Shown here: in pieces, positions 4,110 through 21,151 of the stretch
How the letters are laid out: each line of letters begins with the position of its first letter
Position numbering within the stretch: position 1 is the stretch's first letter
IMG/VR virus record: IMGVR_UViG_3300031576_000115
Coordinates: 1-43,441 of that record
DNA from: a virus
Reading direction: 5' to 3' (one strand)
DNA length: 43,441 nt
Position numbers and translations under genes: made by a program
Notes under the pieces: model-generated
What the model saw: only the letters and a program-made list of their open reading frames with translations
Databases searched by the model: none
Told to the model about the DNA's origin: nothing

Positions 4110-4211
4110 GGCTTCGCGGTTCGCTCCGCTGGCTTGAGCGGCCTTCGGTCTTGTCATCCTTGACGTTTTGGCTTTTCTACGTTTCGGCGTTTCAGCGTTT
4201 CGACGTTTCCG
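4110..4211. repeat. Family D repeat D2 with neighbouring GC-rich inverted segments
   Basis: The gap between capsid and decoration genes holds gacgttttggc...cgtttcggcgtttcagcgtttcg (family D, about 4163-4212) and a GC-rich segment (ggcttcgcggttcgctccgctgg) with internal complementarity. No gene was seen here. Confidence 0.6.
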
Positions 4212-9033: not shown

Positions 9034-9471
9034 TTACGATCCGGGCGGCAGTCGGAACAACATCGTTTTTCCCCGGCAGACGATCGGCTCGATGGGCCGC
9101 GCCTCCAACAGCACCCACCCCACCGGCCCTTCAAACCACGGATCGTCTATCACCCAATCATAGGTCCGGTCGATCTCGTCCGTCCTATCTTTTCTCCCCA
9201 CGCATTCCACGAGTCGCGCCATCCCGATCACCGCCCCATAAATCAAGTCTGAAGGCTGTAGACCGTAGGCTGTAGGGCCCGCGTCTTCCCTACCACCTTC
9301 AGCCTTCAGTCTATAGCCTCGTGTCTTCGAGGCGTGAATCCCGATCCACCCGCGGTAGGGCGTGGCCCAGGTCCGGTTCTCCACCCGTTTGGGCCCGTGT
9401 ACGATGAGGTGCGCGTAGGGTTGGCGAACGGACAGGATGGGGATGCTGTGAATATCGAATGGGCTCGTCAC
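9034..9471 (-). CDS. ASCH-domain protein with in-frame repeat insertion
   Basis: 145 aa, start GTG 9471 overlapping the upstream stop (GTGA). The N-terminal ILSVRQPYAHLIVHG, then KRVENRTW and YRGWIGIHA, is the ASCH/PUA-like signature associated with RNA or modified-nucleotide binding. The domain is interrupted after IHASKT by family A copy A5, read in frame as YRLKAEGG...GPTAYGLQP. The natural sequence resumes at LIYGAVIGMARLVEC, a typical ASCH strand. The phage evidently tolerates the insert, probably in a surface loop. Confidence 0.85.
   Translation of the reverse strand: MTSPFDIHSIPILSVRQPYAHLIVHGPKRVENRTWATPYRGWIGIHASKTRGYRLKAEGGREDAGPTAYGLQPSDLIYGAVIGMARLVECVGRKDRTDEIDRTYDWVIDDPWFEGPVGWVLLEARPIEPIVCRGKTMLFRLPPGS
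9246..9320. repeat. Family A palindromic repeat, copy A5, in frame inside the ASCH gene
   Basis: Arms ctgaaggctgtagaccgtagg and ccttcagccttcagtctatag. Translated on the minus strand in the one stop-free frame as RLKAEGG...AGPTAYGLQPS, splitting the ASCH fold. Confidence 0.9.
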
Positions 9472-9998
9472 GCTATTTTATTCCCTGGATTGTGTCCCAA
9501 CGTCCACGACTTTCGATAGCATGATTTACACTTCCCGCCCGGTTCCGCCAGCGCCGACGCGATCGCCGCGTCGACTTCGCCTTTGTCAAACCCCGTCCAA
9601 CCGAGGTCGATATCTCCGTCCGCTTGCAGCTCGCCAAGCAAATCGGCCAGTCCTCCCGCGTCCCATTCTCCGCTGATCTTGTTCAATCCGAGATTGAGGG
9701 CCTTTTCCTGGGCGAGGGGCAGGTCCACCACACAGACTTCCACTTCCTTCACCCCGAACTCGGCGACCAGCACCTTGAGTCGCTGATGCCCGCCGACCAA
9801 GTTCCCGCTGCGCTTATTCCACACCATCCCGCCCACGTATCCGAACTGGGCGATGGAGGCTTTGATCTTCTCGTATTCCGGTTCCCCGCGTTTGAGTTCC
9901 TTGCGCGGATTGTACGCCGCCGGTTTTAGTTTCCTCACCGCCACGGTCTGCGCCCGCATGGGCGGAAGGGCCGGTTTCTTGTTTCGGCGTTTCGGCAT
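9468..9998 (-). CDS. ParB-like nuclease-domain protein (second paralogue)
   Basis: 176 aa from ATG 9998. The ParB/sulfiredoxin-type N-terminal domain is clear: AYNPRKELKRG, a central WNKRSGNLVGGHQRLKVL (the GGHxR loop), and ALNLGLNKISGEWD. No ParB helix-turn-helix is seen. The C-terminus carries CKSC. It is paralogous to the protein at 16851-17552, sharing WNKRSGNLVGGH and NKI.GEWD. The first codons (MPKRRNKK) derive from family D repeat D3. Such proteins accompany phage DNA methylases and nucleases; the role here is unknown. Confidence 0.85.
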   Translation of the reverse strand: MPKRRNKKPALPPMRAQTVAVRKLKPAAYNPRKELKRGEPEYEKIKASIAQFGYVGGMVWNKRSGNLVGGHQRLKVLVAEFGVKEVEVCVVDLPLAQEKALNLGLNKISGEWDAGGLADLLGELQADGDIDLGWTGFDKGEVDAAIASALAEPGGKCKSCYRKSWTLGHNPGNKIA

Positions 9999-10008
9999 TT
10001 CGGCGTTT
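9975..10008. repeat. Family D repeat, copy D3, providing a start codon
   Basis: Plus-strand gtttcggcgtttcggcattt and ggcgttt. On the minus strand this reads GAAATGCCGAAACGCCGAAAC, so the ATG start of the ParB-like gene lies within the repeat. Confidence 0.85.
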
Positions 10009-10192
10009 ATCCGCACACCGTCATCCAAATCCGTTGCAGTCTCCGCCCCGCCGCTTCCGTGAGCGGTCGTTTGCGGTGGTTTTTTTCCACGTGCTCCACG
10101 AACGCCCAATCCCATCCGTCGAGGCCCAACCCGGCGGGCTTCCCCTTATGTTTAAGGATTTCTTCCAGGATTTTGTCCTCGTCCGGGGTCAT
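10007..10192 (-). CDS. Small helical protein of unknown function
   Basis: 61 aa (MTPDEDKILEEILKHKGK). Acidic helical N-terminus, then WDWAFVEHVEKNH and a basic stretch. Its stop overlaps repeat D3, which leads into the ParB-like gene. No ribosome binding site is obvious, because the upstream bases belong to repeat A6. No family recognised. Confidence 0.6.
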   Translation of the reverse strand: MTPDEDKILEEILKHKGKPAGLGLDGWDWAFVEHVEKNHRKRPLTEAAGRRLQRIWMTVCG

Positions 10193-14317: not shown

Positions 14318-14574
14318 TATTTCAACCTCCCAAACGACTCAATCGCCGCAATTTGAACGTACCATTCATGCGGCAGTTTTTGTGCGTCTTTTCACTCTTT
14401 CGTGGCTAGTTCGCCGGTTTCGTACACGATTGCGGCATCATGCAGCAGCACCAATGTCGCATTGACGCCAACCAGAGTACCAGTGTAGATGTAGTTCAAG
14501 CAGAAGAGCGTAACTCTTTCACCGAGCAGTTTCTCCAAACCTTCGCCCATGACCTCATCAACTATTTTTCTCAT
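14317..14574 (-). CDS. Sm-like small protein interrupted by an in-frame TGA
   Basis: From ATG 14574 (ATGA overlap) the first 60 codons read GERVTLFCLNYIYTGTLVGV, NATLVLLHDAAIVYETGE, an Sm/Hfq-like beta-strand pattern. TGA at 14392-14394 stops it after TKE. In the same frame, 24 further sense codons read KDAQKLPHEWYVQIAAIESF, then GRLK, before TAA 14317-14319, which overlaps the next start. From memory, related phage proteins carry such a C-terminal segment, so the TGA probably replaces a sense codon such as TGG. Either a nonsense mutation or UGA readthrough. Confidence 0.65.
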
Positions 14575-14993
14575 CGTTTTCCCTTCTTTTTATTTGACCT
14601 AGGCCTCGGAAAGATTGTCGTTCCATCCCACGGGCAATTCGGACATTCGATCTTGTGTTTAGCTTCGAGCGGCAGAAACGCGGCTTTCAAGACCTTGTCG
14701 TACTCGGCCCACGCGCCTTGCTCAACCCTGAAGTACTTAGCCATCGCGACGTTCTTCACCTTCTCGGCGGCTTGCTCAACCTTGTCGTACCTGGCAAACG
14801 CGGCGTTCTTGGCCTTCTCGTACTCGGCTAGCAATTGCGTGGCTTTTGTGCTCATGGGCTGATACAGACGCAATCGCAACTCTTGTTCGGCCTTGGGTTT
14901 GTCGGCTTTGATGAAAGCAATGCAATTTTTTCCCAGCCAGTTGTCCCACTCGCATAAAATGTCGTCATGGCAATGCCATGATCCGGTTGTCAT
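14571..14993 (-). CDS. Coiled-coil protein with C-terminal Cys pair
   Basis: 140 aa from ATG 14993 (MTTGSWHCHDDILCEWDNW), overlapping the stop of the Lar-like gene (ATGA). The middle consists of repeated Ala-Lys-Tyr helical units (LLAEYEKAKNAAFARYDK, VEQAAEKVKNVAMAKY, VEQGAWAEYDKVLKAAF), predicted coiled coil with about 17-residue periodicity. The C-terminus has ECPNC and a basic tail. No family recognised; possibly a nucleic-acid-associated or structural factor. Confidence 0.65.
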   Translation of the reverse strand: MTTGSWHCHDDILCEWDNWLGKNCIAFIKADKPKAEQELRLRLYQPMSTKATQLLAEYEKAKNAAFARYDKVEQAAEKVKNVAMAKYFRVEQGAWAEYDKVLKAAFLPLEAKHKIECPNCPWDGTTIFPRPRSNKKKGKR

Positions 14994-15184
14994 TTTTTGC
15001 TCTTTTTCTTCTTCACGTCCCAGGAATCCCAAATGGACCAAGCCTCTTCGATCGTAGGACAATTCAGGCCAAACACGACCATCCGACACATGGGATTAGC
15101 GCAGGCAATTCTCCAGCCCGCGCGCACTTCCGGCTTTACTCCGCACCACGTTCACGGCTTGTGATTTTTTGGCTTTGGCTTCAT
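14990..15184 (-). CDS. Lar-like zinc ribbon gene with in-frame TGA at codon 11
   Basis: From ATG 15184 (overlapping the upstream stop, ATGA) to TGA 14990-14992 (overlapping the next ATG) there are 65 codons in one frame. The only interruption is TGA at 15152-15154. The frame reads MKPKPKNHKP-TGA-TWCGVKPEVRAGWRIACAN, then PMCRM and TIEEAWSIWDSWD. That is the Lar-type pattern (C-x2-C, W-x-x-x-C-x-x-x-x-C, EEA-x-x-x-W). The TGA sits where the first zinc Cys is expected. Single-base loss (TGC/TGT to TGA) or recoding (Sec, Cys or Trp) are the options. Confidence 0.6.
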
Positions 15185-15390
15185 TGCTCGTCATCCAAGC
15201 TGAGAGATTCGATGCACGTTGCAGCGTGCTGGGTAATGTCTCTCAGCGCCGACGCCGTGTCTTCCTTGGGCACGGAACTATCACTCATAATCTTGCAGTC
15301 GATCAAGCGTTTGATTTCTTCGCACGCCTGTTCCAGCCTCGTGCTCTTGGCTTTGGATTTCATATCGCCGGTTTCTTTACTGTGCTTCAT
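15181..15390 (-). CDS. Small charged protein of unknown function
   Basis: 69 aa from ATG 15390, overlapping the upstream stop (ATGA), with its own stop overlapping the Lar-like start. Lys/Glu-rich helical sequence (TRLEQACEEIKRLIDCKI; ALRDITQHAATCIESLSL). No family recognised; tightly coupled to both neighbours. Confidence 0.65.
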   Translation of the reverse strand: MKHSKETGDMKSKAKSTRLEQACEEIKRLIDCKIMSDSSVPKEDTASALRDITQHAATCIESLSLDDEQ

Positions 15391-16331
15391 TCTGTCGCGC
15401 CTTTCAAAAACGCCAATCTGTTCGTCCAGTTCGGATCAACAATCCGCAGATCGAGCAGCGAGGGGTACATGATGACCGCCGACGGCCCGGCCATGAATCG
15501 CCGCGGCCGCTCCCGATACCATTTCCCGTACAATTCACGCCCCATTTCTCTCGAATACTCAAAGTCCGCCGTCCACTGCCACGCCTTGAAGTCGGACCAC
15601 GTGTAGCGTTGCCCGCACCCGACGCTCACCCATGCACATGTATGGATGCCCATGGCGTCGGCCGACGCCTTGCCCAGGCGGGACATTTGCCGCGTCTCCG
15701 CGATCTCACCGACGTTGTACGCCTCCCATCCGATGCTTTGCAGGCCAGGGAAGGGCGCGGACCAGGGCGGCAAAACATACCCGTCCGGTTCGACTGGGGC
15801 CGCCATTGGCCCGAACGCATACCAGTGAACTTCGCTGCAACCCGCGATCGTGCGGATGAAGGAATCATAGGAGGCGTAGAGTTCGGCACACTTCGATCTG
15901 GCGGGTTCGGCGCGACAGTCGAGCGTCTCGGCGTCCACGAGGCAGACGATCGTCGGTTTGTAGGCCGATGCAGCCAGCGCCTTGGCGCAACCAGCTTGCC
16001 ATTGCCGCCACGTAAGACCGAACGCCTGCATCGCCGCCGGGCTGTTCGGATCATTGACCGTCGGGTCGAACCACGGACTAAACGTGACCGCCAACTTGGC
16101 CGCATGGGCTTGCGCGATCTTCAGGGCAACTGCGACTTGGTCCTTGGACGCCTTTTCGGAAACCCCGATGCTGCCGGTGATCCGCGTGACCTCGGCTAGC
16201 TCTGCGTTGTCAATCTTCAACACTTCGGAGGGAATCGGCCACGAGTAGGTCGCTACGGGCAAGGGCTTGACCAACTTCAACTCATCGATCGGCGCCCCGA
16301 ACAACAGAACAATCCACACCATCCAGTTCAT
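15387..16331 (-). CDS. Secreted protein, possibly glycoside-hydrolase-like
   Basis: 314 aa from ATG 16331, coupled to the upstream stop (TGATG) with GGAAGG about ten bases upstream. The N-terminus (MNWMVWIVLLFGAPIDE) is a signal peptide or anchor. The body has segments in the style of TIM-barrel proteins (AKLAVTFSPWFDP; PTIVCLVDAETLDC; SEVHWYAFGPMAAP; IGWEAYNVGE; GIHTCAWVSVGCG), with acidic residues at strand ends. It may be an export-dependent cell-envelope enzyme and is the best candidate seen for a lytic enzyme, but no named lysin family was recognised. Confidence 0.55.
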   Translation of the reverse strand: MNWMVWIVLLFGAPIDELKLVKPLPVATYSWPIPSEVLKIDNAELAEVTRITGSIGVSEKASKDQVAVALKIAQAHAAKLAVTFSPWFDPTVNDPNSPAAMQAFGLTWRQWQAGCAKALAASAYKPTIVCLVDAETLDCRAEPARSKCAELYASYDSFIRTIAGCSEVHWYAFGPMAAPVEPDGYVLPPWSAPFPGLQSIGWEAYNVGEIAETRQMSRLGKASADAMGIHTCAWVSVGCGQRYTWSDFKAWQWTADFEYSREMGRELYGKWYRERPRRFMAGPSAVIMYPSLLDLRIVDPNWTNRLAFLKGATE

Positions 16332-16750
16332 CAGCGGATCCTTCCGGTTTTGTTCCAACGATCAACGACGTCTCCGGGGCGCATTTCCATCCCCGTCACG
16401 GCGTCCACCACGCGCATGGTCCCATCCGCTTTTCGCCGTTCCCACACCAGCAGCGGAAGGCCCTCCCGCACCGCGAAGTTCCGCTCGCCCGAAGCACCTT
16501 CGCTGGAGTTCCAATTCGGCAACAGCAACACCGCGTCGCAACGAGCCAGAATTTCGATGTCCCCCTGGAGGAAGTCCGAGTCGGTCACCGCACCGCCCAT
16601 CAGCAGCGAGTTGAGGTGCGGGCAGATGGGGGCGAACCCCAAGCGCCACAGGCCGATCGACGCCTCCCGCGCCGCGAGAATGTTGGCGAACACAGCCGCC
16701 TCCGTTGGTCCCCGGTAGGGCCCGGCGACGTAGACCACCGGTTTTCTCAT
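16331..16750 (-). CDS. DUF4406 / nucleoside deoxyribosyltransferase-like protein
   Basis: 139 aa from ATG 16750 (MRKPVVYVAGPYRG) with AAGGAACG upstream. The motif VYVAGPYRGPTEAAVFANI is the substrate loop of nucleoside 2-deoxyribosyltransferase-fold proteins. SDFLQGDIEILARCDAVLLLP and EGASGERNFAVREGLPLLVW complete the family pattern. Phage members may act in nucleotide salvage or modified-base metabolism, fitting the nearby methyltransferase and ASCH protein. Confidence 0.82.
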   Translation of the reverse strand: MRKPVVYVAGPYRGPTEAAVFANILAAREASIGLWRLGFAPICPHLNSLLMGGAVTDSDFLQGDIEILARCDAVLLLPNWNSSEGASGERNFAVREGLPLLVWERRKADGTMRVVDAVTGMEMRPGDVVDRWNKTGRIR

Positions 16751-16850: not shown

Positions 16851-17552
16851 TTATATCTTGATCGCCCTAGCGTCGTACCCGTCGCCGAGCAGTTCCTTCA
16901 GCGCGTCCCGCTGGGCGGTCTTGCTCGTACACACCACCAGCACCCCCCACTGCTCGATCCGCGGCAGCTCCGCCCGCGTCCGTCCCTTCGCTTCCTCCCC
17001 GACTTCCGCCGCGACCGTCAGGGCCAACGCCGTCTTGATCTCATCCTTGTCGAAACCGGAAAGGGTGACATCCGCCGCCCGGTCCTCCATCAATCCGCCC
17101 AAGACGTCGACCAGGGCCAGCTCGTCCCATTCCCCAACGATCTTGTTGAGGGCCAGGTTGAGCGTCCTTTCCGCCGCCGGGCCCAAGTCCACCACGCTCA
17201 CGTCCACGGCCTTGGCCGCGAACTCGCGGGTCAGGATTTTTAGGCGCATGTGCCCGCCGACCAGGTTGCCGCTGCGCTTGTTCCAGATCAGCGGGTCCAC
17301 CAGCCCGAACTCTCCGATGGAGCGCTTCAGCTTCTGATAGTCCGGGTCGGAGGGCTGCAAGTCCTTGCGCGGGTTGTATTTGGCGACCTTGATCCGCTTG
17401 ACCGGGAGGCGCTTGAGCAGCACCCGGCCCACAGATGAGGCTGTAGGCTGTAGACCATAGGCTGTAGGACCCACAGCCTTCAGCCTGCGGCCTAGTTCAT
17501 TCGTGCGGCGTGCCGCCGCTGTGTCAGCAGTGGGTTTCTTGGTTTTCATCAT
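16851..17552 (-). CDS. ParB-like nuclease-domain protein (first paralogue)
   Basis: 233 aa, start ATG 17552 overlapping the upstream stop. The domain reads KYNPRKDLQPSD, WNKRSGNLVGGHMRLKIL, ERTLNLALNKIVGEWDE, the ParB/Srx fold with the GGHxR loop. No ParB helix-turn-helix was recognised. The C-terminus (WGVLVVCTSKTAQRDALKEL) is extra relative to the paralogue at 9468. The N-terminal about 45 residues consist of repeats read in frame: family C (PTADTAAA) then family A (RRLKAVGPTAYGLQPTA). Function unknown. Confidence 0.85.
   Translation of the reverse strand: MMKTKKPTADTAAARRTNELGRRLKAVGPTAYGLQPTASSVGRVLLKRLPVKRIKVAKYNPRKDLQPSDPDYQKLKRSIGEFGLVDPLIWNKRSGNLVGGHMRLKILTREFAAKAVDVSVVDLGPAAERTLNLALNKIVGEWDELALVDVLGGLMEDRAADVTLSGFDKDEIKTALALTVAAEVGEEAKGRTRAELPRIEQWGVLVVCTSKTAQRDALKELLGDGYDARAIKI
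17437..17497. repeat. Family A palindromic repeat, copy A7, in frame inside a ParB-like gene
   Basis: Arms gaggctgtaggctgtagacc and cacagccttcagcctgcgg. Minus-strand translation RRLKAVGPTAYGLQPTA uses the same frame as the copies in ASCH and TerL. Confidence 0.9.
17511..17533. repeat. Family C palindrome, copy C2, in frame inside a ParB-like gene
   Basis: Plus-strand gccgctgtgtcagcagtgg, translated on the minus strand as PTADTAAA at the very N-terminus of the ParB-like protein. Confidence 0.8.
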
Positions 17553-18178
17553 ACCGTTGCCAGTTCTGGTGCGGGTTCGTTTCCCTTCTTGCCCAATGAC
17601 CTCTGGATTCGTCGCTCCAAGGACGCCAACACCCCGTTGACCCGCTCGACTTCCTGGCGGAGCGTGCGAATTAACTTCCCTTGTTCACCGACCGTCCGCC
17701 GCGCTTCCTCCAGTTGTTGCTGCACGTAGTGCAATCGTTCGTGTTCCGACATCGTCGGCGGCGGCGGGCGCATCCCCGCGACCGTCCGCTCGGCGTCCAG
17801 CAGTTTGGTCTCCTCGTTCTTGGCCCTCCACAACCTGCCTTCGACAACGTACTGCTTTTCCGTCACCCCTTCGTTGATCGCCCGTTCGATGTCCCGTTGC
17901 GTCTCCCCGATGGCCACCAGGGCGGCGTAGTGATCATCCAACCAATCGTCCACCGTCATGTGCCGCCCGGCGGCGTCCTTCAGACTGCTCACGTGATCGA
18001 GGAATTCATTGGTGAAGTCGCGACGCATGGTCATCACGTAGACCGTGAACCGAAACGCCTCCTTTCTAGCCTGTCGCAGATAGTTCGTAGCGCTCTGGCA
18101 CTTCATGCTCAGCCGCGCGTGGCACTCCAAGGCTTCCTTCCACAGATGATCGAACCGTTTTGTCACTTGCGCTTCCAT
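17549..18178 (-). CDS. Coiled-coil protein of unknown function
   Basis: 209 aa from ATG 18178 (MEAQVTKRFDHLWKEALE), with AGGAAAGGAAAA upstream. The C-terminal half (HERLHYVQQQLEEARRTVGE; KLIRTLRQEVERVNGVL; LERRIQRSLGKKG) is strongly heptad-like. The start lies 113 nt inside the end of the zinc-ribbon gene, a long overlap for this genome; a later start is possible. The stop overlaps the ParB-like start. No family recognised. Confidence 0.65.
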   Translation of the reverse strand: MEAQVTKRFDHLWKEALECHARLSMKCQSATNYLRQARKEAFRFTVYVMTMRRDFTNEFLDHVSSLKDAAGRHMTVDDWLDDHYAALVAIGETQRDIERAINEGVTEKQYVVEGRLWRAKNEETKLLDAERTVAGMRPPPPTMSEHERLHYVQQQLEEARRTVGEQGKLIRTLRQEVERVNGVLASLERRIQRSLGKKGNEPAPELATV

Positions 18179-18977
18179 TTCGTTTTCCTTTCCTGTTTTT
18201 CCTACATTCTTTGCAACTAAAACCGTTTTTATTGACCGCCATTTGCATTGGTTCTCTCCAACCCGCCGGCCCGCCGCACCACCGGCACGCCACTGATTTA
18301 CCGCCGCGATAATTAGGATTTTTCTGTCCGGTCCTTGTTTTCCAGCAACCATTGCACAAAGTCACTTTGCTGGGAATTCGATTCCCGTGTCGCGAAAGCG
18401 TGCACCCGCAATGATGACAAAGGGAAATGTGTGGCCCGGAGGAGGTCCCGCGGTTAACCGATAGACCCCGATTGTTGGCGGAGCATTTGTTGCAATAGAA
18501 CCCTAACTTGGCTGCACGCACACGTGAGGGGCACCGCCATCCCGCAGAGCCCCCGCAACTTCGGCACATTTCTATGCCGCCGCCGGTCCAACCGGCAGTG
18601 TTTGCTTCGAAATAATCGGACCTCTTCCGAATACCACGGAGCGCCCGGTGCAAGCGCCCGTAGCAATTTACACACCGACGGCGACCTGCATGAGGACGAA
18701 TCTTGTCGCAATCAATACATCGTATGAGTGGCCCAAGATATTGCGGAATACAAGCCGCCAGGCGTTGAATCTTGGAGCACTTTCGGCAACGGGGAAGCGG
18801 ACGTGACGCGTTCCGTTTAACACCACACCCGGGGCACGTAAAAAATCTGTCCTGGCACCGAACGTAGCCCGGTTGTTCGCGCTCCTTTCTTGAGCGACAC
18901 CTACTGCAACGGTCATGGCAACTGTGCGCACGTTCCAACCCACAATCCACGCAAATTACCAAACGACGGATTCTCAT
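18066..18977 (-). CDS. Six-module zinc-ribbon protein
   Basis: 303 aa from ATG 18977, overlapping the TerL stop (ATGA). Six C-x2-C pairs of pairs follow one another: Cys 9/12-24/27, 48/51-64/67, 87/90-102/105, 138/141-162/165, 187/190-208/211, 231/234-255/258. Modules 4 and 6 are similar (CRSCGGSAGW...CNKC and CRWCGGPAGW...CKEC). NPNYRGGKS before module 6 resembles linkers in HNH/homing-endonuclease-associated zinc ribbons, but no HNH catalytic core is visible. Likely nucleic-acid binding. Coupling to TerL suggests a link to packaging, though an HNH remnant is possible. Confidence 0.75.
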   Translation of the reverse strand: MRIRRLVICVDCGLERAHSCHDRCSRCRSRKEREQPGYVRCQDRFFTCPGCGVKRNASRPLPRCRKCSKIQRLAACIPQYLGPLIRCIDCDKIRPHAGRRRCVNCYGRLHRALRGIRKRSDYFEANTAGWTGGGIEMCRSCGGSAGWRCPSRVRAAKLGFYCNKCSANNRGLSVNRGTSSGPHISLCHHCGCTLSRHGNRIPSKVTLCNGCWKTRTGQKNPNYRGGKSVACRWCGGPAGWREPMQMAVNKNGFSCKECRKNRKGKRNGSASDKTVRSSVEGSLGVPRAAEHEVPERYELSATG

Positions 18978-21151
18978 TCCCGCGCCCCCACGTAAAACTC
19001 TCGCCCGTCCGGGGTCTGGATCCCTTCCTCCGTTTCGACGTTTTGACTTTTTGACGTTTTGACGTTTCTCGCGCAAGCGAGTTGCGCCAGGTGCCCCGCC
19101 GCCGCGGCGTAACACGCCGCGTCCAGGTAGTGATTGCTCTTCCCCACCCGCTCCCAGCGAGTCACCTGCCCGCGATCGGCCACGAACATCTGCACCGGCC
19201 GCTCCGCGGTGAGGTGCTTGGCGAAGGTGAGGTGCTCGGCCTTCACCGCCGCGTACAACCCCATCGCCCCCGGTTCGCCCGGCGGCATGGCCAGCCGCTC
19301 GTGGACCCACGTCTTCCAGAAGTCCACGTTGACCTCCACCATGTGCACGTGCTCCGCCTGATGCCAGGCGACGTGGTAGCCCTCCCCAACGTACTGCACC
19401 ACGTTCCCCGTGCGCGTGGGCCGCGTGTAGCGCCGTCCCGTGTCCGCCGTCTCCCCCCTTCCGTACAACGGGCGGAACACGTCCGCCTTCCATTCCTGTT
19501 TCGTCTCGCGGATGAATTGCAGGGCCGCGTCGCGGCTCTCCGCGTAGCCGGTGTCGATCCAACACTGCGTGGGGCGGTGCAATGCGCCGCTGCCGTCCGC
19601 CCAACCCTGGGCGCAGCGATCGCGGAACTCGCGCAGCGCCACCAACGTGGCCTTCTCCACTCCGAGGTCGATCGTCGGCACGTCGATCACCCCGTACTCA
19701 AAGATGTGACCAAACAACAAGGCTGTAGGCTGTAGGCTGTAGGCTGTAGGTCCCGCGCCTTCAGCCTTCAGCCTATGGTCTACAGTCTGGTCTCCCAGAT
19801 ACCATGCGATGTTGACGTAGAAGGCACGCCATTTGCCAAGGTCGACCCCCGATGACACGCACACCGTACCCTCCGGCACCGTCCCCCGCCCCCATGTCCC
19901 GATGCGGCGTTGCACCCCGTCGCAGGTGATGGGCGCCAAGACGGTGATGTCCGGCTTGTGCGGCAACCCCCACAACTTCTGAAGCCGCGTGCGGCTGGCG
20001 CTCTCCTCGTCGGCGGCGTGGGCGTAGCGCCATTCCTCCGCCGCCAGACTTCCCGCGGTGCGCATGAAGTTGTTGATCGCCGAGAACCGGAACCCCAAGA
20101 TCCGCGTCCGCGGCTGCGGCCCGACGATCACGTCCTCGCTGCCGGGAATGGCCCGCGTTTCTTCCATCGCCATTTCCGCGTTTCGGCGTTTCGGCGTTTC
20201 GGCGTTTCCGATGGTCTGCCCCTTGTGCAGCAACACCGCCGCGAGGTTCATTTCCTTCCGCTCGCCCTCCGACCACGGTTTCAGGCAATGCGGGCAGGCG
20301 AACGCTCCATTTTCTTGGGCCTCAATCTCGTCGGCGGCCGTTTTCCAACCGGTGAGCATCTCCGTGTCCGTCTCCGTGTCGCTGGGCACGATCCATTGCT
20401 CGCAGTGCCAGCAACACAAGGCGATGCGGCTCTGCGAGCCGAGCATGTAATCCTGCCAGATGCGCCCCTGGGCGGTCGACGGCGTGCATTCCTTGTAGAC
20501 CAGGGCCTTATCGTCCCAGGCCTTGGTGCGGTCGATGAACTGGTCGATCTTGGACCCTTCCTCGGACACCGAGGAAATGTGGTCCATCTTGTCCACTTCC
20601 GTGATAATCATCACCCGCGTGGTCTCGCTGGAGCGCTGCGTATCGCCGCCCTGCCCGGACATGAAGCGCAGCGTGGCCCGATTGCGGAAGCGCACGGTCT
20701 GCACCCGGTCGCCGTCTCTACTCCCGTCGCCGCGTTCGGGCATGAATTCCCGATAGCGCGTTCCTTCGATGGCCGGTTTGAGGATGCTGACCCACTTCTC
20801 CCCCGCCAATTTCAGGTCGGGGATACCGCAGATGGTTTTTTCGCGCAATTCAAAGAGGTGATAGAGAGTGGGGATCACGTAGCAGATGGTGGTCTTCCCG
20901 GACTGTACGCACCCCACGACGTTGATGTCTGACCAATTCCCGCTGTCGATTTCGGTGAAGAGCAAGCGACTGAAAGGTTGCCGTTCCCCGCGGAAGCGCC
21001 CCGGATAGGGGCCTTCCCCGAGCACGATCTCTTCCTCCGCGAACTGCATCATTCCCCGCCGCTTGGGTTCGCCGGCGGCGACGATGAAACTTTGAAGGGT
21101 CTCCCGATGGTTTGCTCGAACTCCGCGGCGATCGACGGCTACTGGCGTCAC
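18974..21151 (-). CDS. Terminase large subunit (GpA family)
   Basis: 725 aa from GTG 21151, which overlaps the upstream TGA (GTGA); the frame is open further upstream but low-complexity. Walker A GCVQSGKT (80-87), Walker B IITEVD (about 182-187), zinc-like CWHC (247-250) and CPHC (286-289), and nuclease Asp in GVDLGKW (436-) give the lambda gpA order of ATPase then endonuclease. Two repeats are inserted in frame: family D (about 315-330) between the domains and family A (about 455-478) inside the nuclease region. The C-terminus carries another family D copy. It cuts and pumps DNA at the portal. Confidence 0.93.
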   Translation of the reverse strand: MTPVAVDRRGVRANHRETLQSFIVAAGEPKRRGMMQFAEEEIVLGEGPYPGRFRGERQPFSRLLFTEIDSGNWSDINVVGCVQSGKTTICYVIPTLYHLFELREKTICGIPDLKLAGEKWVSILKPAIEGTRYREFMPERGDGSRDGDRVQTVRFRNRATLRFMSGQGGDTQRSSETTRVMIITEVDKMDHISSVSEEGSKIDQFIDRTKAWDDKALVYKECTPSTAQGRIWQDYMLGSQSRIALCCWHCEQWIVPSDTETDTEMLTGWKTAADEIEAQENGAFACPHCLKPWSEGERKEMNLAAVLLHKGQTIGNAETPKRRNAEMAMEETRAIPGSEDVIVGPQPRTRILGFRFSAINNFMRTAGSLAAEEWRYAHAADEESASRTRLQKLWGLPHKPDITVLAPITCDGVQRRIGTWGRGTVPEGTVCVSSGVDLGKWRAFYVNIAWYLGDQTVDHRLKAEGAGPTAYSLQPTALLFGHIFEYGVIDVPTIDLGVEKATLVALREFRDRCAQGWADGSGALHRPTQCWIDTGYAESRDAALQFIRETKQEWKADVFRPLYGRGETADTGRRYTRPTRTGNVVQYVGEGYHVAWHQAEHVHMVEVNVDFWKTWVHERLAMPPGEPGAMGLYAAVKAEHLTFAKHLTAERPVQMFVADRGQVTRWERVGKSNHYLDAACYAAAAGHLAQLACARNVKTSKSQNVETEEGIQTPDGREFYVGARE
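19026..19072. repeat. Family D repeat, copy D5, in frame at the TerL C-terminus
   Basis: Plus-strand gtttcgacgttttgactttt and tgacgttttgacg, read on the minus strand as NVKTSKSQNVETEE near the end of TerL. Confidence 0.8.
19719..19791. repeat. Family A palindromic repeat, copy A8, in frame inside TerL
   Basis: Four tandem ggctgtag units in the left arm, and ccttcagccttcagcctatgg in the right. Minus-strand translation HRLKAEGAGPTAYSLQPTA interrupts the TerL nuclease domain between YLGDQTVD and LLFGHIFEYG. Confidence 0.92.
20168..20212. repeat. Family D repeat, copy D6, in frame inside TerL
   Basis: Plus-strand cgtttcggcgtttcggcgtt and further units; minus-strand translation NAETPKRRNAEM between the ATPase and nuclease domains of TerL. 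Confidence 0.9.

Follow-up and report, generated by a model that had tools for sequence, protein, structure and literature searches.

The Lar family (PF14354) includes RalR of the E. coli Rac prophage, which has been described as a DNase toxin with an RNA antitoxin, RalA; this reported activity is no evidence on the function of the Lar-like gene analysed here (PMC4147584). Amongst 16 other Lar frames examined in this study, two were found to carry an in-frame TAA, namely those of Klebsiella phage vB_KpnP_XY3 and Vibrio phage 1.223.O. The broken frame of the Klebsiella phage is unannotated, and a second Lar match without stops is present in that phage. The Vibrio phage annotation covers only what follows the stop; it begins at an in-frame internal start and names the product a coil containing protein. 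The TAA-carrying Lar frames of the two sequenced phages were recorded as L010 (148-297) and L012 (148-330).

The other described systems that invite comparison are the bacterial selenoproteins, for which UxxC is listed among the usual motifs (PMC1794560). A published bacterial SECIS model describes an apical loop of 3-9 nt, an upper stem of 4-16 bp, a G in the first two loop positions, a distance of 16-37 nt from UGA to loop and a stability of at most -7.5 kcal/mol (PMC13188914). For viruses, a tRNA-Sec gene has been reported in Basilisk-like phages (PMC6145125), and a marine survey states that selenoprotein families beyond three named ones lack viral sequences or have very few (PMC9402790).

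The locus described here lies in a virus record of 43,441 bases, the whole of which was analysed and is referred to as the window. On its minus strand, the 65-codon frame 15184-14990 (64 codons and a terminal TGA) translates as MKPKPKNHKP, an in-frame TGA at codon 11 (15152-15154) and then TWCGVKPEVRAGWRIACANPMCRMVVFGLNCPTIEEAWSIWDSWDVKKKKSKK before the terminal stop; T-W-C-G follows the internal TGA directly. Minus-strand translation reproduced exactly the coordinates and the reading of the original prediction, and the coupled ATGA junctions that it placed at both ends were seen as overlaps with the two neighbours at 15181-15184 and 14990-14993. Four-base overlaps occur six times among 35 listed ORFs (one of them GTGA) and this frame supplies two of the six; these 35 ORFs, which also underlie the stop counts given below, come from our own gene list and not from an annotation. 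The openness of so short a frame is, alone, weak evidence.

The frame is part of a cassette of minus-strand ORFs. At the head of the cassette is an ORF of 323 residues (15387-16358), followed by an ATGA-coupled ORF of 69 residues (15181-15390) immediately upstream of the interrupted frame, and neither gave a convincing family match. Downstream, and again coupled by ATGA, is an ORF of 140 residues (14571-14993) with CPNC near its C-terminus and relatives in eight viral loci; to it in turn is ATGA-coupled an ORF of 60 residues (14392-14574) without a convincing family match. Some of the eight viral-contig loci carry several copies of the 140-residue ORF side by side, and the ORF itself contains a 54-nt internal repeat at 14713-14820 and weakly matches a PHROG of unknown function.

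The nearest relative found was L002, on the same contig as L047, with a terminase 79% identical to that of the window. Its DNA aligns at 70-82% identity on both flanks of the cassette, between which L002 holds about 1.2 kb as against about 3.0 kb in the window, and no convincing Lar-like frame was detected in L002. Since the cassette is missing from this nearest relative, the Lar-like gene is regarded as accessory. Scans for promoters and terminators gave nothing above shuffles, and terminase and portal matches in phage records (22-27% identity) were too distant for naming a host.

Elsewhere in the window, seventeen short tandem arrays with units of 7 or 8 nt were observed, starting at 4164, 6432, 8110, 8513, 8572, 9981, 11493, 16816, 17438, 19031, 19720, 20173, 33851, 35072, 38605, 40116 and 40785. 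Their units include AGGCTGT, GTAACTG, GTTACGA, CATTCGA, TTTCGGCG and CGTTTTGA, and several arrays fall within ORFs, the terminase among them. At other places in L002, peptides resembling repeats and short DNA matches of a like kind were seen. The ORFs 9468-10115 and 16851-17552, which we take to be ParB-like, are similar to each other, and L002 also has two matches.

Assignment of the interrupted frame to the Lar family could not be made with standard models: neither Pfam nor NCBIfam gave a PF14354 or Lar match when the TGA was read as Cys or as Trp, and when the record was searched with PF14354 under read-through of stops, nothing was returned at E<=10. An ordinary Lar profile was built from 15 proteins, comprising RalR, 12 phage Lar frames and two frames from genome-search loci, with three further phage Lar frames left out. 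Among 2,886 six-frame chunks of the window, those holding the frame ranked 80 and 98 with null2 and 63 and 70 without it; with the stop masked, 211 of 3,000 shuffles scored as high with null2 and 123 of 3,000 without. As the frame was not singled out (ranks 63-98), this profile was rejected as an identifier. Separately, the C-terminal part of the ORF 18066-19604 contains twelve consecutive Cys-x2-Cys pairs, and chunks of this ORF outscore the frame with the ordinary profile without null2.

A viral collection was also scanned with the pattern K-P-[TGA or Cys]-x-W-C-G-x-x-P, which returned 35 viral loci; sorted by eye, 22 of them were Lar-like and 13 were not. Ten of the 22 were compared with PF14354 and all ten matched, eight above the cut-off. 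A second profile, of the KPC-x-WCG type, was made from 20 of the 22 Lar-like sequences, two near-duplicates being left out. With the stop masked, the chunks holding the window frame took ranks 1 and 2 of 2,886, and none of 5,000 shuffles scored as high; the largest score gain from one added Cys falls at position 11. Without null2, the 23 bits of the window frame were reached by Lar genes only (42,826 background chunks from 63 other loci), whereas with null2 the frame scored 14 and two other Cys-rich frames, L029 and L031, scored 14.6-16.8.

Because the members of this profile had been picked via the first motif, the part following the motif was scored separately. For this part alone, 42 of 5,000 shuffles without null2 and 76 of 5,000 with null2 scored as high as the window, which took ranks 7-8 and 24-25, respectively. 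When nine outliers were dropped, the shuffle counts were 242 and 602 of 5,000 and the ranks 12-15 and 53-58. The frame keeps three of four zinc-ligand Cys (C14, C28 and C33), the first being replaced by TGA. Within these limits the KPC-x-WCG-type profile supports the earlier Lar-like reading, and on sequence grounds the frame appears to be a divergent Lar-type frame, well supported for its first motif and modestly for the remainder.

It had further been claimed that the TGA stands at the first Cys of C-x2-CG, and the alignment, the codons of relatives and the profile all bear this out. All 22 pattern-found Lar-like viral sequences have TGC or TGT at codon 11, in a search whose pattern permitted only TGA or Cys there, and a second Lar-like sequence with TGA was seen in 0 of these 22; TGA did occur at two of the 35 pattern loci (L093 and L110), both non-Lar. 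Lar frames found without the pattern, namely RalR and 15 picked for spread from the 40 phage matches listed, agree, with Cys at the corresponding position in 15 of the 16, while the remaining one has lost that end. A PF14354 search of 274 genomes of one class gave a match in six, none of which had internal stops.

In an alignment of 16 sequences (the window and 15 of the 20 KPC-x-WCG-type relatives), the invariant positions are K9, P10, C11, W13, C14, G15, P18, C33 and W52, of which only C33 and W52 lie outside the search pattern, and the C11 of the window results from translating its TGA as Cys. At three near-invariant positions the window differs, with Thr for P12, beside the TGA, Asp for N53 and Trp for R55. 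A structure predicted with TGA read as Cys (pLDDT 75.1, pTM 0.57) has strands at 18-21 and 25-28, between the Cys pairs, and a helix at 45-54. The best match of the predicted fold to PDB structures was NudC at E 0.44, with none at or below 0.001, and a PDB sequence search likewise gave weak matches only (best E 0.3).

Searches for closer relatives of the small protein confirmed no homologue in viral contigs, and the exact neighbourhood pattern, with any third base allowed at codon 11, gave no other copy; since all of the collection searches used here may omit records very near the window, close relatives could have been missed. Phage records gave nothing convincing, with seven Streptomyces phages at E 0.3; in the one match inspected, the genes are on the other strand. 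A few candidates were discarded, including a genome-contig match of the small protein, which was a chance match inside a long peptidase-like ORF, and a neighbour match, L006, which was an unrelated AT-rich gene. A whole-window scan for stops inside alignments to relatives returned mostly antisense frames and was also discarded.

The gene thus resembles the Lar family in size, in the order KP-[11]-x2-CG, in Pro at position 18, in a second Cys pair, in an Ala shortly before the Trp near the end and in a predicted beta hairpin and helix, and differs from it in having TGA for the first Cys, in Thr12, Asp53 and Trp55 at near-invariant positions and in being missed by the Pfam model. Closest by profile are the KPC-x-WCG-type Lar proteins of uncultured viruses (for example L081, L088, L089, L100, L101, L105, L107, L109 and L114), with 21-30% identity when TGA is read as Cys and, in most, the same C-x4-C second pair as in the window; unlike the window, all have Cys at codon 11. 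The Lar frames of Klebsiella phage vB_KpnP_XY3 and Vibrio phage 1.223.O share an in-frame nonsense codon with the present gene, although in both the stop is TAA and precedes the second Cys pair.

Very probably, a Lar-family gene for a zinc ribbon, situated in an accessory phage cassette, has here been inactivated by a nonsense change at its first zinc-ligand Cys, or else its consensus sequence is in error there. Of the options that the original prediction had offered for the TGA, namely a nonsense change, selenocysteine and suppression, the first fits best, the second is unlikely, and suppression has no support, the record being without a tRNA gene. A nonsense change is favoured by the Cys codons of all 22 Lar-like relatives, by the in-frame TAA in two of the 16 other Lar frames and by the lack of the cassette in L002. 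TGA is the stop of 21 of the 35 listed ORFs, this frame included, so it is not reassigned in the record. Thirty-one one-base routes lead to a stop in the Lar-like gene, of which four (13%) fall at the four zinc Cys, and the position of the TGA is therefore not a remarkable coincidence. The departures at Thr12, Asp53 and Trp55 from near-invariant Lar positions may also favour a nonsense change. Translation coupled from the upstream ORF would stop at the TGA after ten residues, and the intact zinc ribbon would not be made; a weak restart at GTG 15127 may keep the downstream 140-residue gene coupled, and loss of the zinc-ribbon gene is presumably tolerated because the gene is dispensable.

Against a nonsense change stand the lack of signs of further decay and a hairpin after the TGA that fits the SECIS model. 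The frame is open except at the TGA and keeps both junctions, and third-position GC after the TGA is 0.64 as compared with 0.67 and 0.66 in the flanking ORFs, so that no additional decay is evident.

The same best explanation includes the case in which the virus population has a sense codon at codon 11 and the TGA arose through a sequencing or assembly error, which by itself we consider rather unlikely. The frame is known from a single metagenomic record, with no other copy found in searches that may omit very near records, and the finding was picked for looking odd, both of which are compatible with an error. On the other hand, codon 12 also departs from a near-invariant Pro, which goes beyond a lone base-call error.

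Selenocysteine at codon 11 is unlikely, and the more specific proposal that host machinery reads the TGA as Sec, guided by the hairpin at 15123-15099 (minus strand), is given very little probability; as little is given to its consequence, a U-x2-C in place of the first C-x2-C knuckle, with selenium as the first zinc ligand. It is still considered because a rightly placed hairpin fits the published SECIS model. The search for a SECIS-like stem-loop suggested earlier yielded a hairpin with a stem of 8 bp, a loop of 9 nt, a G at loop position 2, a spacing of 36 nt from TGA to loop and a stability of -15.1 kcal/mol in our own scanner, which formally satisfies the bacterial model; its spacing and loop size, however, are at or beside the limits of that model, and the rates at which controls satisfy it range from 3% to 49%. 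Among 35 other Lar genes scanned past their first Cys codon, one satisfied the model and none reached equal stability, in favour of selenocysteine. In contrast, 132 of the 1,147 TGAs of the window (11.5%) satisfy it, 11 of them (1.0%) with a hairpin as stable, the present one included. The corresponding figures were 11.5% and 0.6% for 3,000 random positions, 11.9% and 0.7% for 2,000 shuffles, and as much as 49% and 7.3% for 3,000 synonymous recodings of the same residues. As a whole, the stretch after the TGA also folds no better than shuffles (z -0.62 to +1.79), and Rfam gave no family at threshold, with one chance microRNA match at E<=10.

A TGA opposite the Cys of relatives is what selenocysteine would lead one to expect, and the resulting U-x2-C would be a usual bacterial selenoprotein motif (PMC1794560). 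The gene is similar to bacterial UxxC selenoproteins in this placement opposite the Cys of a C-x2-C and in a hairpin within model limits, but differs from them in that no second TGA sequence accompanies it and in its predicted zinc ribbon, which is not a redox fold. By alignment the residue at codon 11 is a zinc ligand and not a redox Cys, the TGA is kept in 0 of the 22 Lar-like relatives, and the record is without a tRNA gene. A marine selenoprotein survey required that the TGA be conserved in two or more sequences and treated single ones as candidates, since sequencing errors are possible (PMC1088965); by this rule, the present gene is at most a selenoprotein candidate.

A further possibility is that the short upstream frame serves for coupling only and that a functional protein of 45 residues is made from the first internal start after the TGA, the GTG at 15125-15127 (minus strand), which we regard as highly improbable. 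This GTG lies 24 nt past the TGA with a GGAG 11 nt upstream of it (15142-15139), the downstream ATGA junction is kept, and Vibrio phage 1.223.O offers a parallel in that its annotated gene begins at an internal start past the nonsense codon of a Lar frame. However, the GGAG-to-GTG spacing is long and the hairpin begins right after the GTG. As had been anticipated, such a restart would lose the zinc site, since it lies past codons 11 and 14; the product would be without the first zinc knuckle, which the aligned relatives keep, though they were chosen by it. Least credible of all is that TGA is read as Trp, through an altered code or through leakiness: in E. coli, UGA is a leaky stop when A comes next, and the base after the codon-11 TGA is A, but 21 of the 35 listed ORFs end in TGA, the record has no suppressor tRNA and Trp would not bind zinc.

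If the TGA did encode selenocysteine, the locus would represent both a natural selenoprotein encoded by a phage and a zinc ribbon with a selenium ligand; our literature search found no report of either, while a laboratory study of T7 under an extended code reportedly brings phage and selenium together. As read here, with a nonsense change as the preferred explanation, it is an ordinary broken accessory gene, and one more decaying Lar gene that annotation would miss.
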